The translations under genes were made by a program, and so were the position numbers. From IMG/VR virus record IMGVR_UViG_3300030118_004050, positions 1 to 35,650 of that record: a DNA stretch of 35,650 nt, one strand, 5' to 3'. This DNA comes from a virus. Below, in pieces: positions 9,394 through 24,627 of the stretch. Numbering within the stretch: the first letter of the stretch is position 1; each line of letters starts with the position of its first letter. The notes under the pieces were generated by a model. The model saw nothing but the letters and a program-made list of their open reading frames with translations, had not been told where the DNA came from and did not search any database.

Positions 9394-9411
9394 TGGCTGG
9401 TATGCCATACT
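9383..9411 (+). promoter_or_regulatory. Sigma70-like promoter with palindromic extended -10
   Basis: -35 TTGACT (9383-9388), 17-nt spacer, -10 CATACT (9406-9411) preceded by TG, predicted start near A9418. The core CTGGTATGCCATACT recurs at 9709-9723 and inside rusA. The -35 overlaps the end of the helicase gene (stop 9391-9393). It drives the small gene at 9448. Confidence 0.65.
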
Positions 9412-9420
9412 TAATTCATC

Positions 9421-9694: not shown

Positions 9695-9723
9695 TTGCCT
9701 TTTAACTCCTGGTATGCCATACT
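9695..9723 (+). promoter_or_regulatory. Second copy of the palindromic promoter
   Basis: -35 TTGCCT (9695-9700), 17-nt spacer, -10 CATACT (9718-9723) with upstream TG, predicted start near A9730. From CTGGTATGCCATACTTA through TCATCGGGAG it is nearly identical to the promoter at 9383, including the predicted start region, so one copy probably arose from the other. Confidence 0.65.
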
Positions 9724-9732
9724 TATGTCATC

Positions 9733-10097: not shown

Positions 10098-10340
10098 ATG
10101 GACGCATTTACTCAAAGCCTTGACCTCTTCGAGTCTTTTGAACGCTTTCAAGACAAGCTAGAAGCCGACAACCTGCTCAAGCTTCAAGACATGAAGCCCG
10201 CCACTCGCTACTACGTCGAAGCATCACTAAACGGCAACCTTCAATGGACTGAGTGGGCTTATAACCAAGATGAGCTTGATCTCTTGATTGCAGATGCAAA
10301 AGACTCCGGTTGCTCTTACACCGTGGAGTCGGTCAAATGA
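10098..10340 (+). CDS. Small acidic helical protein of unknown function
   Basis: An 80-residue protein from ATG 10098: MDAFTQSLDLFESFERFQDK, then LEADNLLKLQDMKPATRYYV and LDLLIADAKDSGCSYTVESVK. It is acidic, with a helical first half and an alpha/beta second half. The frame open upstream to 9909 is a shadow across the previous gene. The leader has no Shine-Dalgarno site but contains CAACACCTCAA as at 9758. The stop overlaps the next ATG (ATGA), coupling the pair. Confidence 0.7.
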   Translation: MDAFTQSLDLFESFERFQDKLEADNLLKLQDMKPATRYYVEASLNGNLQWTEWAYNQDELDLLIADAKDSGCSYTVESVK

Positions 10341-10582
10341 ACGGCTACAAGTTCCCCCGTACCTATGCAGACCTTGAGGCTGCCCCTTGGTGCGATGGCT
10401 ACATCCCTCCCAAGGGTCAAGTGTCACAGGACGGCGAACACCTTTCGATCTTTATCAAGCTCGACTGGCTACCGGCAGAGTTTCACGATGCCATCAGCCC
10501 TGGCGGTTCAAGCCTGAAAGATGCGCTGGAGCAGCTGAAAGATTATTGGCAAGACATGCGACCACCCACCAAACAGATTTGA
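10337..10582 (+). CDS. Small protein of unknown function
   Basis: An 81-residue protein from ATG 10337, overlapping the previous stop by 4 nt. It has an aromatic/Pro-rich N-terminal half (MNGYKFPRTYADLEAAPWCD, GYIPPKGQ), a strand (EHLSIFIKLDW) and a C-terminal helix (LKDALEQLKDYWQDM). Translationally coupled to the 10098 gene, so the two may act together. Four nt after its stop begins the structured RNA and a possible 13-codon leader peptide. No family recognised. Confidence 0.7.
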   Translation: MNGYKFPRTYADLEAAPWCDGYIPPKGQVSQDGEHLSIFIKLDWLPAEFHDAISPGGSSLKDALEQLKDYWQDMRPPTKQI

Positions 10583-10586
10583 TTCA

Positions 10587-10628
10587 ATGTCGGGGAGCCT
10601 GATGCCTGACTTTCCCCCAGCAGGCTGA
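10587..10628 (+). CDS. Possible 13-residue leader peptide
   Basis: ATG at 10587, only 4 nt after the preceding stop, opens MSGSLMPDFPPAG followed by TGA. It runs through the 5' strand of the closing stem and the first inner hairpin of the structured RNA. Pro-Pro shortly before a stop can slow ribosomes, so it could couple translation to RNA folding. No Shine-Dalgarno site of its own; highly tentative. Confidence 0.25.
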   Translation: MSGSLMPDFPPAG

Positions 10629-10691
10629 AAGCTATAAAATACCGAAAGGGAAGGCAGGGCAGCTTTGAGGTGCTGATCTATCCCCCGACAT
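10587..10691 (+). ncRNA. Structured leader RNA, three-way junction type
   Basis: ATGTCGGGG (10587-10595) pairs perfectly with CCCCGACAT (10683-10691), closing about 105 nt. Inside, AGCCTG (10596-10601) pairs with CAGGCT (10621-10626), and AAAGCT (10628-10633) with AGCTTT (10661-10666). A small CC-GAAA-GG hairpin (10642-10649) lies inside the second arm. A pseudoknot between TTCCC (10612-10616) and GGGAA (10648-10652) is possible. It lies in the leader of the 177-residue gene at 10744. I do not recognise a known riboswitch or cyanophage RNA class, and base pairing was judged by eye only. Confidence 0.5.
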
Positions 10692-10743: not shown

Positions 10744-11277
10744 ATGGCTTCTGCTGTTTTTTCGCATAAACCAATTCCCTGCACTTGGCTAAGGCCAGGG
10801 AATCAGAAACCACATTTTTGCATTGTTCTTATTGGCGAAGAACATGAAAACTATGGTGAACCTGCTATCTGCAATCTTAATCCAGCTCAATACTGGATTA
10901 AGCATTTAAAGGACGGTAATGTTGTTTACGTCACGAACATTCATCGTAGCGAAGAATCTGGTAAGTTACTTTGTGATGCGTCTCCAAATGCTTTTCAGCC
11001 CTTGTTTCAAGGAGTCGCAGAAGGCTTTGGGGAAAAGGAACACGCTATTCAGGCGGAGCTTCCAACACCAAAATTAGAAATTGTTCCTGACTCAACTCCC
11101 CGCAGAATTGAAACTTACTTAAACGACCCGCAGCAAATTCAAGTCTTTGGGGCCCTTGCTAATCACTTGTCAATCAAGCACGCAGGCCACCTTTTGCTTA
11201 CGTACGCAATCGGATGTCTCCCTAGATCTGGGAAAGGCTGGACCGGTGAAGAAATCCACGCGTATTTAACCAAATAA
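10744..11277 (+). CDS. Protein of unknown function behind a structured leader
   Basis: A 177-residue protein (MASAVFSHKPIPCTWLRPGN...) with an N-terminal beta section (HFCIVLIGEE), a lysine-rich mid region, a Pro-rich linker (about 105-120) and a C-terminal helical part (QVFGALANHLSIKHAGHLLL). Soluble, with no catalytic motif I can name. ATG 10744 has AAAGG 6 nt upstream, unlike the Shine-Dalgarno-less genes before it. Its 160-nt leader holds the structured RNA and an ACCTCC-rich tract, so it is probably the regulated target. The strong terminator at 11286 ends its transcript. Confidence 0.75.
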   Translation: MASAVFSHKPIPCTWLRPGNQKPHFCIVLIGEEHENYGEPAICNLNPAQYWIKHLKDGNVVYVTNIHRSEESGKLLCDASPNAFQPLFQGVAEGFGEKEHAIQAELPTPKLEIVPDSTPRRIETYLNDPQQIQVFGALANHLSIKHAGHLLLTYAIGCLPRSGKGWTGEEIHAYLTK

Positions 11278-11285
11278 AACCTTTT

Positions 11286-11315
11286 GCCCTGCCACTAGCC
11301 CTGGCAGGGCTTTTT
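11286..11315 (+). terminator. Strong intrinsic terminator
   Basis: GCCCTGCC (11286-11293) pairs perfectly with GGCAGGGC (11303-11310), loop of 9 nt, followed by five T. It lies 8 nt after the stop of the 177-residue gene and separates the small-gene region from packaging genes. Confidence 0.9.
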
Positions 11316-11359
11316 ACACATGGCTAAACAAGACTCCCTTCGCGCGAAACAGCGCCAAA

Positions 11360-11563
11360 ATGACCTCAACGCTTTTCGTCGCTATGAACGCCAATACTGG
11401 CTCGCTTACGCCCGTAGCCAAAATCCGCACCCTCCCAACTGGCAATGTGCAAGTCACAGTCGGCAACTTCAGAGGCATTGTCAGCTCGACGCGCTCGACT
11501 GAACACAAAATCCGCCAACTCCGCTCCTATTGGCAAAAAGCTCACCATCACTTCTACCCTTGA
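11360..11563 (+). CDS. Possible small protein before terS
   Basis: The frame from ATG 11360 (or ATG 11384) encodes 67 residues with MNANTGSLTPVAKIRTLPTG, NVQVTVGNFRGIV and a helix (STEHKIRQLRSYWQK). The strand-turn-helix order looks protein-like. A competing plus-strand frame at 11320-11502 overlaps it, and neither has a Shine-Dalgarno site. I prefer this frame because its composition is more natural and its end approaches the terS leader, but the call is weak. Confidence 0.4.
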   Translation: MTSTLFVAMNANTGSLTPVAKIRTLPTGNVQVTVGNFRGIVSSTRSTEHKIRQLRSYWQKAHHHFYP

Positions 11564-11598: not shown

Positions 11599-11919
11599 AT
11601 GGGTAAAAAATCAACCAACGCAGAAATTGAAGAGCGCGTAAAAGCTGTCTATGGCTTGTTTATCAAGTCATATTCTCGTTTTGAGATCTTGCAATATGCG
11701 GCAGAACAGTGGGGTGTTAGCGAAAGAACAGCAGACATCTATATGCAGCGTGCTCGCAAGTTGATTCAACAAGACTCAGAGATTGAGCGTCCAGAATGGC
11801 TTGCTGCTGCAATTGCACGGCTTGTAAAATATGAGCAGAAGGCAGGTCGAGACGAAAACCTGCAAGTTGCGATCAAGGCTTTGGAGACTCAGGCCAAGCT
11901 GCTTCGCTTTGACATCTGA
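11599..11919 (+). CDS. terS: Terminase small subunit
   Basis: The 106-residue protein has a helix-turn-helix section (about residues 8-50: RVKAVYGLFIKSYSRFEILQ, then WGVSERTADIYMQRARKLIQ) and a C-terminal helical part for oligomerisation and TerL contact. TerS binds the packaging site and loads the motor. The TGA overlaps the ATG of terL by 1 nt (TGATG), which together with position gives the assignment. Small subunits diverge strongly, so the sequence alone would be less certain. Confidence 0.82.
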   Translation: MGKKSTNAEIEERVKAVYGLFIKSYSRFEILQYAAEQWGVSERTADIYMQRARKLIQQDSEIERPEWLAAAIARLVKYEQKAGRDENLQVAIKALETQAKLLRFDI

Positions 11920-13268
11920 TGCCCTTGCTGACAGGGCTTACAGACGCTGAACCGCTCTTGGCATTTGCAACGCCACCAACGCAAGAGGGCACAGTTGAGC
12001 TGGTCGAACGCATCAAATCTGATCTGCATCCTGGGCAGCTTGCTTTCGTAGAAGATCAAACAACAGAAATTATTGGTCTGTCTGCGGGCTATGGAGCTGG
12101 CAAGACCAGAAGCCTTGTCGCGAAAGCTGTTGTCTTGTCTGCTCTAAATCAAGGTTTCATTGGTTGCGTCATGGAGCCAACAGGCCCCCTAATACGTGAC
12201 ATCTGGCAAACAGACTTTGAATCGTTTTTAGAGCAATACGACATTCCATACACCTTCAGAGCTTCGCCGTTGCCAGAATATGTTTTGCACCTACCAGGCG
12301 GTGATACAAAGATTCTGTGTAGATCGTTTGAGAACTGGTCAAGAATTATTGGCTTGAACCTTGCTTGGGTGTTGGCTGACGAAATTGACACGGTGACGCC
12401 TTCAATCGCTGAAAAGGCATTTCCCAAGATTCTTGGCCGTTTGCGTTCTGGCAATGTTCGTCAGTTCGGTGCAGCATCAACGCCTGAAGGTTTCCGCTGG
12501 ATGTGGAACACGTTCGGTACAGAGCAGGCACAGCATCGCAAAGACAGAAAGCTGATTAGGATGCGGACCGCAGATAATCCACATCTGCCTCAAGACTTCA
12601 TTGAAAGGCTGCAAGCCAACTACGATCCAAGCCTGTTGCAGGCTTACTTAGAAGGCCAATTTTGCAACCTTACAACTGGTCAGGTTTATGACCGGTTTGA
12701 CAGAGCAAAGCACGTAACAACCGATATTCCAGATGTCAGCGGCGAACCTTTGAGAATTGGCGTTGACTTCAATATCGCGAATATGTCAGCTGTTATCGGT
12801 GTTCGTCTTGTGGACAAACTTCTCCTGATCGATGAGATCAGTGGCGCACATGACACCGACGCCATGGCACAAGAAATCCGAAGGCGATTTCCCCACCAAA
12901 CGATATATATGTACCCTGACGCATCAGGCGGAAACAGAAGCACGAATGCCTCGCGGACTGACATTCAAATCTTGGAAACGTACGGGTTCAGCAATCAATC
13001 ACCGAAGGCCAACCCTCCCATACGTGATCGGGTGGCTTCTGTTCAGGCTTTGCTGGAAAACGGAAAAGGGGAGGTAAGGCTGCAAGTTGCAGCCAACTGC
13101 AAGCGCACGATTGAATGCTTAGAGCTTCAGAGCTACACCGAGGCCGGTGATCCTGATAAAGATGCGGGCTATGACCACATGAATGATGCGCTTGGTTATC
13201 TCGTCTACAGAGATTTCTCAATGCTCCATGCCCGCGCTGGTCGTGGTACAGGAATCAGGCTTTACTAA
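11919..13268 (+). CDS. terL: Terminase large subunit
   Basis: A 449-residue packaging motor. The ATPase part has Walker A GYGAGKTR (residues 57-64) and Walker B VLADE (151-155). The C-terminal RNase H-like nuclease has GVDFN (Asp283), MYPDASG (Asp334) and YDHMNDALGY (Asp419 and Asp423). It pumps DNA into the procapsid and cuts concatemers. The order TerS-TerL-portal-MuF is standard. The size is near the short end for TerL but all motifs are present. Confidence 0.95.
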   Translation: MPLLTGLTDAEPLLAFATPPTQEGTVELVERIKSDLHPGQLAFVEDQTTEIIGLSAGYGAGKTRSLVAKAVVLSALNQGFIGCVMEPTGPLIRDIWQTDFESFLEQYDIPYTFRASPLPEYVLHLPGGDTKILCRSFENWSRIIGLNLAWVLADEIDTVTPSIAEKAFPKILGRLRSGNVRQFGAASTPEGFRWMWNTFGTEQAQHRKDRKLIRMRTADNPHLPQDFIERLQANYDPSLLQAYLEGQFCNLTTGQVYDRFDRAKHVTTDIPDVSGEPLRIGVDFNIANMSAVIGVRLVDKLLLIDEISGAHDTDAMAQEIRRRFPHQTIYMYPDASGGNRSTNASRTDIQILETYGFSNQSPKANPPIRDRVASVQALLENGKGEVRLQVAANCKRTIECLELQSYTEAGDPDKDAGYDHMNDALGYLVYRDFSMLHARAGRGTGIRLY

Positions 13269-22350: not shown

Positions 22351-24627
22351 ATGGCAACTTCAAATGTTACCTTGATTGTCAACGCTGCTCAGGCGGTCAA
22401 TCCTCTTAGGCAGGTAACAGCTGAGACAAAAAAACTTGAAGGAGCAACGCGTGACGTAAACGGACGTTTAAGGGATGTAAATGGGCGTTTTGTTGCGACA
22501 GGTCAATCAGCCACTAAAACCTCACGGGCTTTTGGTGGTTTAAAAAACAAAGTGGTTGCATTGGCTGCTGCTTACGTGGGTTTAAATGCTGCGCAGAATG
22601 CCATTAAATCGGGGATTGATCGTATTGAATCAGAAAGAAGAATTGAATTTCTTGCTAAAGGATATGGAGAAGTTGCTTCCTTGCAAAATGCAGCTACCAA
22701 GGCGGCTAAAAGATTTGGGACAGGTCAAACATCTGCCAATCAAGCTTTGGCAGATGTTTTTGCTCGATTGCGCCCAATAGGCGTAAGTTTAGAAGACATT
22801 GTAAGTGTTTACAATGGCTTTAACACTGCAGCGCGAATTAGCGGATCATCAGCTGTTGAGTCTGCAAGTGCTTTTAGGCAGTTGTCTCAAGCTCTTGGTT
22901 CTGGCGCGTTGCGAGGCGATGAATTTAATAGTATTTCAGAGCAAGTTCCAGGAATTTTGACGGCTATTTCTCAAGAAAGTGGCGTTGCACAAGGTAATTT
23001 GAGAGATTTTGCAGCAGAAGGAGGAATTACAAGCGATATTGTTATTAGGGCTCTTAAACGTATTGAAACTGAAGGTGCTAGCCAGCTTTCAGCGGCTTTA
23101 GGCGGTCCAGCGCAAGCAATTCAAGATTTTCAAAACGCAAGTGAAGAAGTTCAAGTTGCTTTGACAAAAACTATTGTTCCTGAAATGGCTAGGGTTTTTA
23201 CTGGACTTGCAGAGTTAATAATAAATCTCAAGGGTCCAATTGAATTCATTGGAGGTGTTACAGCAGGTGTTTTGCAGCAAATTAATAGTTTAATTACGCA
23301 AGCAACAAAGCCTGCTGCATTCGCTGCACGCAAAGACATAGAGGCTGGGTTAATTCCGACTAATCTTGTTAATGCGCTGACATTCAGAGACCCTCAGCAA
23401 GGCGCAAAAGAATTGTTTGGGGAAGCTGAATTTAATAAACTTTCGCAAAGAGCGCGAGAGTTTGCAAAACTTAGAGGGCAAGGATTTCAGCAAACTTTAT
23501 TGCAGTTTATGCAAGACAGGCTTAAAACGATGGATGCGGCAGGGCAGCCGCCAAGCTTAGTATCTCCTGTCATTCCAACTTTTCTGCCACCTGGCGGCAA
23601 AACATCTACGTCTGCAGCTGCAGTAAAGCCTGATATGTCTCAGAAACTTTTTGACCTAAACAGTAGGCTGCTAGGCCAAGAAGGCGAGATAACAGAGCTA
23701 GAAAAATTGTCTTTGGAGTTTCAAATTGCCAAGCAAAAAATTCTTGAAAATGACCTTAAACCTAGAGAAGAAGCCATTGAACTTTTACGAGCAGAGGTAG
23801 GCTTTGAAGAGCAGCTTTTGGGCTTCAGGCAAAAAGGAATTGATGCCGAAGAAAAACAGAGACAAAAGGCAGAAAAAGAAAGGCAAAAAATGGAAGCTGC
23901 TGAAAAGAAACGCAGGGAGTCTGACCCTGGCTTTCAAATGCAAAAGCAGCTTGACGAGTTGCTCAAACTTGAAAATCAAGTTGCTGCTGGCGCTACCGCT
24001 ATTGGCAGTGCTTTCAGCAACGCTTTTGTTTCTGTTGTAACTGGCAGCAAGAGCGCGAAAGAAGCATTAGCCGACATGATGTCTGCCGTTGCTGAGCATT
24101 TTATGGACATGGCGGCACAGATTATTGCCAAGCAATTAGCAATGATCTTGTACGGGACGATCATGAAAGCGCTTGGGGTAAGTGGGGGAAACATGGGCGG
24201 AGACAACTTTTTTGATCCTTTGACTGGCAAGGGTGTTGCTGGACCTAACTTTGGGTTAGCAGAAGGCGGATATGTTTCAAGTCCAACCAACGCTTTAATT
24301 GGTGAAGGTGGCGAGCCTGAATATGTTATTCCTGAATCTAAAATGCGTACAGCAATGTCGCGTTATTCACGCGGCAGTCGCGGTAATTCTGTTATCCCAG
24401 AATCTGGTGCAACTGAAGCAATGGGAGAAGGAGGCGGAACTGCTGTTGCCGCTCCAATCGATGTTCGATACACCGTGGAGCGGATCAATAGCGTCGATTA
24501 CGTGACTGCTGATCAGTTCCAAGCTGGAATGCAGCAGGCTGCACAGCAAGGTGCTAAACAAGGTGAACAGCAAACCCTGAAGCGTTTACAGATGAGTGGC
24601 AGCACACGTAAGAGGATCGGAATATGA
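22351..24627 (+). CDS. Tape measure protein
   Basis: The 758-residue protein begins MATSNVTLIVNAAQAVNPLR and is mainly helical. A FNTAARISGSSAVESASAFR then QLSQALGSGALRGDEFNSIS section matches the tape measure domain (about residues 150-200). A hydrophobic part lies near 270-315, a long charged coil (residues 480-530, EEKQRQKAEKERQKMEAAEK), and a late Gly-rich AEGGYVSSPTNALIGEGGEP. It sets tail length and is ejected at infection. Directly after gpGT and before tail-tip genes, as expected. Confidence 0.9.
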   Translation: MATSNVTLIVNAAQAVNPLRQVTAETKKLEGATRDVNGRLRDVNGRFVATGQSATKTSRAFGGLKNKVVALAAAYVGLNAAQNAIKSGIDRIESERRIEFLAKGYGEVASLQNAATKAAKRFGTGQTSANQALADVFARLRPIGVSLEDIVSVYNGFNTAARISGSSAVESASAFRQLSQALGSGALRGDEFNSISEQVPGILTAISQESGVAQGNLRDFAAEGGITSDIVIRALKRIETEGASQLSAALGGPAQAIQDFQNASEEVQVALTKTIVPEMARVFTGLAELIINLKGPIEFIGGVTAGVLQQINSLITQATKPAAFAARKDIEAGLIPTNLVNALTFRDPQQGAKELFGEAEFNKLSQRAREFAKLRGQGFQQTLLQFMQDRLKTMDAAGQPPSLVSPVIPTFLPPGGKTSTSAAAVKPDMSQKLFDLNSRLLGQEGEITELEKLSLEFQIAKQKILENDLKPREEAIELLRAEVGFEEQLLGFRQKGIDAEEKQRQKAEKERQKMEAAEKKRRESDPGFQMQKQLDELLKLENQVAAGATAIGSAFSNAFVSVVTGSKSAKEALADMMSAVAEHFMDMAAQIIAKQLAMILYGTIMKALGVSGGNMGGDNFFDPLTGKGVAGPNFGLAEGGYVSSPTNALIGEGGEPEYVIPESKMRTAMSRYSRGSRGNSVIPESGATEAMGEGGGTAVAAPIDVRYTVERINSVDYVTADQFQAGMQQAAQQGAKQGEQQTLKRLQMSGSTRKRIGI

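Follow-up and report, generated by a model that had tools for sequence, protein, structure and literature searches.

A conserved structured RNA upstream of the terminase genes of marine cyanobacterial viruses, a likely cis element of the late transcript

RESULTS

A structured RNA new to Rfam lies at the early/late boundary

The window, the whole 35,650-base virus record that was analysed, carries AAA/helicase-like, terminase large subunit (terL) and portal genes. In the gap from a small ORF that ends at 10582 to the ORF that starts at 10744, it holds on the plus strand, at 10587-10691, what is almost certainly a real, conserved structured RNA that is new to Rfam. A covariance model of the family matches this element end to end with 94 bits, although the window sequence is one of the 30 seeds of that model. 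The model spans both ends of the element exactly where a sequence-only reading had placed them. Its relatives keep the same position, at the early/late boundary upstream of the terminase block, and the same strand, the late one; we consider the element likely to be a cis element of the late transcript. The larger ORFs 3' of the element are all on the plus strand, through to the end of the window. The parts of the element and its neighbours are the following:

10337-10582 (+): upstream ORF, its stop 4 nt before the 9-bp P1; the gene family at this place varies between phages
10587-10595 (+): 5' strand of P1, pairs with 10683-10691; compensatory change in 7 of 9 pairs
10597-10603 (+): core strand GCCUGAU, invariant or almost so
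10598-10600 and 10657-10659 (+): P5, provisional; CCU may pair with GGG, always pairable, zero double changes
10604-10625 (+): P2 hairpin, GCCUG/CAGGC; compensatory change in 4 of 5 pairs, 97% of cells paired
10626-10630 (+): core strand UGAAA, invariant in the 30-sequence alignment A1
10631-10655 (+): P6 region; 10631-10633 pairs with 10653-10655 and encloses AUAMAA and a short P3
10642-10643 and 10648-10649 (+): P3, short; compensatory change in 5 of 5 pairs of the alignment
10660-10675 (+): P4 hairpin, CAGC/GCUG; compensatory change in 4 of 4 pairs
10676-10682 (+): joining strand AUCUAU plus one base, 5' of the P1 3' strand; strongly conserved
10683-10691 (+): 3' strand of P1, partner of 10587-10595; covariation in the 30-sequence alignment
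10744-11277 (+): cargo ORF, 177 aa, function unknown; many RNA-bearing phages lack it or have another gene in its place
11286-11315 (+): intrinsic terminator, 9-bp stem and TTTTT, between the RNA and the late genes
11599-11919 (+): probable small terminase gene (terS), judged by its place before terL; PHROG of unknown function
11919-13268 (+): large terminase gene (terL), with relatives 3' of the RNA in 133 of 133 loci

Comparative evidence for the fold

The general form of the family is P1, N, GCCUGAU, P2, UGAAA, P6 (enclosing AUAMAA, an optional P3 and AA), ARGG, P4, AUCHAU and P1'. Members measure about 90-170 nt, typically about 110, and have six helices including the long closing P1; P3 is absent altogether in some of them. 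The unpaired invariant core consists of GCCUGAU, UGAAA, ARGG and AUCHAU, with UGAAA changed to UGAGA in one member of a set of copies fetched through terminase. In the window, P1 is the perfect 9-bp closing stem AUGUCGGGG/CCCCGACAU that had already been recognised from the sequence, and it covaries in relatives. The 5' strand of P2 is the second GCCUG copy of the element, and P6 reads GCU/GGC, with C-G/U-A covariation across relatives.

Thirty diverged copies were aligned by MAFFT from sequence alone and then scored against the proposed structure (alignment A1). Standard pairs filled 91.5% of the paired cells and compensatory changes occurred at 21 of the 29 pairs, giving a covariation score of 0.42, compared to 0.175 +/- 0.012 for shuffled alignments and at most 0.09 for slid structures. 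When background-corrected mutual information was computed on a segment-wise alignment of 129 copies, the top ten pairs all fell in P1, P2, P4 or P6. The terminase-fetched copies, retrieved via the terminase protein and independently of the RNA, gave a covariation of 0.303 against 0.123 when shuffled, in an alignment fitted to the model structure. This set doubles as a check on bias of the RNA search strings: GCCTGATG is found in 23 of its 35 copies, and most of the remaining copies vary inside that string. Single-sequence folding yielded mixed structures, and the window fold of -36.6 kcal/mol (shuffled, -31.5 kcal/mol; z -1.5; 12 of 200 shuffles equally good) barely beats the shuffles; it proves little alone and was not used as proof. 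It is the covariation that places the structure far beyond chance.

The conserved inner helices, P2, P6, P3 and P4, differ from those drawn in the sequence-only reading, which had used the first GCCUG copy to form AGCCUG/CAGGCU and had added AAAGCU/AGCUUU. Both of these stems are present in the window sequence, but they are paired in 79% and 57% of cells, respectively, among 30 relatives and show zero compensatory change across them. Compensatory changes in the three stems had been named as support for that reading; the closing stem has them and the two inner stems do not. The pseudoknot suggested at the same time would rely on the loop of P2, where conservation is lacking; the pairing is thus unsupported, and our search found no conserved pseudoknot. 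Two scans for double changes in P5 (CCU/RGG) returned only chance matches elsewhere, and P5 is therefore provisional. RNAalifold offered other core partners (11-12/62-63 and 102-103/141-142), which are not preferred because double changes are absent there, whereas P6 has them.

The element matches no known RNA family

At the gathering score, Rfam 15 gave no match in the window or in eight related loci, and permissive scans of three members returned chance-level matches only. With strong covariation and no Rfam match, the description of a multi-branch structured RNA of no assigned class survives on the two points at which the earlier reading had laid it open to refutation. No account of the element was found in the open-access literature searched.

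CUGAUG and GAAA strings around a three-way junction give the element a likeness to the hammerhead ribozyme, which is defined by CUGANGA, stem II, GAAA, stem III and an NUH cleavage site. However, the element departs from this definition: all four bases (C, A, G or U) occur at the A9 position, which is paired in P2, the joining strands are unlike those of the hammerhead, and Rfam gives no match. This likeness and a TPP-like one were dropped after the Rfam and core comparison. PhotoRC-II, manA and wcaG are candidate structured RNAs of marine cyanophages (PMC2864571); they go with photosynthesis or metabolic genes, whereas the present element is tied to the terminase block, and their Rfam models do not match it. 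The cabRNA of staphylococcal phages is reported to come from the terminase genes themselves and to activate a bacterial cGAS (PMC10686824). It is likewise a structured phage RNA linked with terminase genes, but the present element is intergenic and lies upstream of terminase.

Distribution among marine phages

DNA-pattern scans of IMG/VR set out from relatives of the window's flanking genes, where the same element was present. Together with GenBank Prochlorococcus siphophages, the IMG/VR contigs contain more than 160 distinct copies among the matches listed, and all 32 records with a match carry exactly one copy. By BLASTN, an element of the AT-rich contig group matches the Prochlorococcus siphophages MED4-184, P-HS2 and MED4-117, while the window locus and a group-1 element gave no match to GenBank phages. 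Partial and weak matches to plasmids were taken as chance.

The element is present or absent as a discrete unit. Among the 41 loci fetched via terL that include 2.3 kb or more of upstream sequence, 26 carry it, and close relatives sharing the same junction occur without detectable RNA. Two of these (L286 and L276) have a clean empty site, the upstream stop codon running directly into the next gene. One contig (L296, 187-260) holds a degraded or replaced copy, scoring 19 bits, with P4 and P1' intact and the 5' half altered. A further RNA-less group with a related terminase was seen (L321, L327, L329 and L331-L333); the gene directly upstream of terS in that group looks like one for a DNA polymerase sliding clamp. 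Close terminase relatives were also found in a gammaproteobacterial and a flavobacterial MAG (L132, PAFU01000001.1, and L133, PACV01000065.1, respectively). Both look like misbinned phage contigs, and L132 carries the RNA.

Strand and boundary are constant while the neighbours change

With the contigs turned so that the RNA is on the plus strand, terL lies downstream on the same strand in 133 of 133 loci and terS in 138 of 138. A helicase gene is found upstream in 67 of 67, and rusA, named by a sequence motif rather than by family search, is on the opposite strand in 102 of 103. The genes upstream belong to many families, yet their stop codon is 5-6 nt from the RNA in most Synechococcus-type contigs; in the window it is 6 nt before the conserved GUCGGGG. 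The gene downstream likewise varies between phages. Since the neighbours change on both sides and the boundary and strand do not, these results suggest an element of the late transcript rather than the leader of one gene. The proposal that it is a regulatory leader of the adjacent gene is not supported, as the downstream families are many and rusA lies on the opposite strand in the Prochlorococcus-phage group.

The rusA stop codon reaches 3-18 nt into the 3' end of the RNA in several groups (for example L134, 13899-14348), and rusA mRNA would thus include a stretch complementary to the RNA. Further downstream in the window, the small ORFs at 11320-11502 and 11360-11563 share sequence in two reading frames, each of which is found again in many related phages (MxKQDSLRAxQRQNDLNAF... 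and ...PVAKIRTLxxGxVxVTVGxFRSIVSS...); they are a possible conserved overlapping gene pair.

Promoters, terminators and rusA around the RNA

The gene geometry suggests that the late transcript runs through the element and, in some phages, starts there. An intrinsic terminator lies within 60 nt upstream of the RNA at about 27 loci. At 17 of these a hexamer matches TATAAT in at least five of six positions, and the distance from its end to the conserved GUC of P1 is 7-8 nt at 11 of the 17. In a group of AT-rich contigs, an intrinsic terminator closes the early block and is followed by the TATAAT-like hexamer and then P1, an arrangement that predicts a transcription start on the first P1 base or beside it. 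The -10 box was sought in all groups and was clear only in the AT-rich one; no promoter was seen beside the RNA in Synechococcus-type phages. In three loci (L017, L061 and L062) an A-run 5' and a T-run 3' flank the hairpin of the terminator that precedes the RNA promoter; this terminator may thus act for the early operon as well as for the convergent gene. A terminator was present directly 3' of the RNA in only 5 of 197 loci, mostly a weak one, which argues against a separately terminated small RNA.

The start codon of the next gene on the late strand falls between -7 and +5 nt relative to the rusA start at most rusA loci. No promoter fits there, and the late-strand transcript must therefore cross at least part of rusA. 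Three loci, the window, L070 and L074, have a GC-rich intrinsic terminator behind the cargo gene; only 3-4 nt separate the end of its T-run from the start codon of the next gene (4 nt in the window, where that ATG is at 11320). This leaves no room for a promoter, and the gene seems to need readthrough. Strict late-strand terminators between the RNA and terS were found in 14 of 139 loci (about 10%). RNA-less relatives had none in 16 from the junction to terL, a difference in the expected direction that is not significant. Terminator density between the RNA and terL is not raised overall, so that the case for antitermination rests on a few well-placed terminators.

Other signals were noted in the course of this survey. 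A perfect 10-bp hairpin followed by TTTTT lies at 22729-22761 of the window, on the coding strand inside the late ORF 22351-24627. A TGGTATGCCATACT-type repeat with the palindrome TATGCCATA occurs at about 9400-9420 and 9710-9730 of the window and also in L276, L281 and L286. It immediately precedes small early genes, in one case with TTGACT, resembling a -35 box, 17 nt upstream of it, and looks like an early promoter or operator site. Five RNA-less relatives (L276, L281, L286, L289 and L305) have in common a conserved GTTGACAYAWGCAGTTATYATT-like block with T-runs behind it, located after the gene corresponding to that at 11320 and possibly a different late promoter.

DISCUSSION

The promoter, terminator and rusA geometry would fit an RNA that gives polymerase resistance to termination, as put of phage HK022 does. 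Put is an RNA antiterminator of a lambdoid phage, about 70 nt long with two stem-loops; its two copies, putL and putR, are on early operons, where they make polymerase resistant to termination (PMC9378689). It suppresses intrinsic and Rho-dependent termination in cis, with no dedicated protein, via the beta' zinc-binding domain. The present element resembles put as a phage RNA near the start of a long operon, in some genomes just after a promoter. It is on the same strand as terL and upstream of it in 133 of 133 loci, on what we infer to be one transcript; a cis action on the elongating polymerase is proposed by analogy. In contrast to put, it is single-copy, belongs to the late operon and has a long P1 and at least four inner helices. 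Compared by structure, its fold is unlike the published put fold, and the likeness is thus one of presumed function and not of membership. The Q/qut system of phage lambda works where the late operon begins, with a terminator that can stand ahead of the late genes; Q is a protein loaded at a DNA site. The position at the late operon start is shared, but here a conserved RNA stands in place of the protein, and a non-exhaustive search identified no Q homologue.

We propose that this phage-encoded RNA would act in cis at the 5' side of the late transcript, which covers packaging and virion genes. Folding while it emerges from RNA polymerase, the RNA, alone or with a phage or host protein, would make the polymerase resistant to termination. 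The resistant polymerase could then read the long late operon through cargo genes with their own terminators and through the convergent rusA. That the element is an RNA antiterminator, put-like in function though not in structure, is our tentative reading, and antitermination as opposed to another cis effect is something we infer only. It is rather doubtful that the RNA by itself reprograms the cyanobacterial polymerase at the head of the late operon, as a second, structurally unrelated class of phage RNA antiterminators, one carried by viruses of marine picocyanobacteria. Several observations speak against antitermination: strict terminators between the RNA and terS in only about a tenth of loci, close relatives with the same junction and no detectable RNA, the lack of a promoter beside the RNA in Synechococcus-type phages, and the different fold of put. 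A late promoter may also lie inside the cargo gene or antisense to rusA.

The position between the two gene blocks, at or near a transcript 5' end in some phages, the stable P1 and the upstream stop codon usually 5-6 nt away would also suit an RNA processing or stability module, at which a host RNase splits early from late mRNA or which shields the 5' end of the late mRNA, the polymerase being unchanged. We consider this unlikely, as the invariant single-stranded core exceeds the needs of a plain RNase site or stabilising hairpin. That same conserved unpaired core, in a compact multi-branch fold, is aptamer-like and would be expected of a leader, riboswitch-like or autoregulated by a phage protein, that senses a ligand or protein and gates late expression. 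However, the downstream gene is inconsistent, the adjacent gene is antisense in a large group, and no consistent expression platform or terminator follows P1' (5 of 197 loci). A riboswitch for the next gene is disfavoured because that neighbour changes or is antisense, and the sensing leader as a whole seems quite improbable.

A trans-acting small RNA that merely stays at this locus would account for the promoter-like box of the AT-rich contig group, but such a box is found in a minority of loci, the 3' terminator is missing and the late-strand placement upstream of terminase is invariable, all of which make it very unlikely. Two junctions with highly conserved unpaired strands and a dispensable P3 might instead point to a new class of self-cleaving ribozyme, by which early transcripts would be cut from late ones; with no Rfam ribozyme match, no conserved candidate cleavage site recognised and a core unlike that of the hammerhead, we give this little credence. 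Inverted repeats upstream of the small terminase gene could also mark a DNA element, either a cos/pac packaging site or a replication origin. Covariation with many G-U pairs and the retention of RNA-like loops argue against this, and the MED4-184 record has its 503-bp terminal repeats at its ends, with the element at 13.8 kb, more than 13 kb away from them. This agrees with the 490-bp terminal repeats reported for P-HS2 (PMC7852597) and disfavours a packaging site. The window ends share no repeat, and GC skew in the window gave no signature tying the element to an origin. Altogether, a DNA element is extremely improbable.

Siphophages that infect Prochlorococcus and Synechococcus occur widely in the ocean; the way in which they switch on their late genes has, to our knowledge, not been described. 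The element marks the early/late switch point in every RNA-bearing genome where this could be checked, and it offers a well-delimited target for mutation. Should it prove to be an RNA antiterminator, control of polymerase by RNA alone would have arisen beyond the lambdoid phages, and the element would give a tool for the expression of long operons in cyanobacteria. Otherwise, it still constitutes a new RNA family with a well-supported fold, absent from Rfam. We conclude that the element probably helps polymerase to read into the DNA-packaging and particle genes in many marine cyanobacterial viruses.
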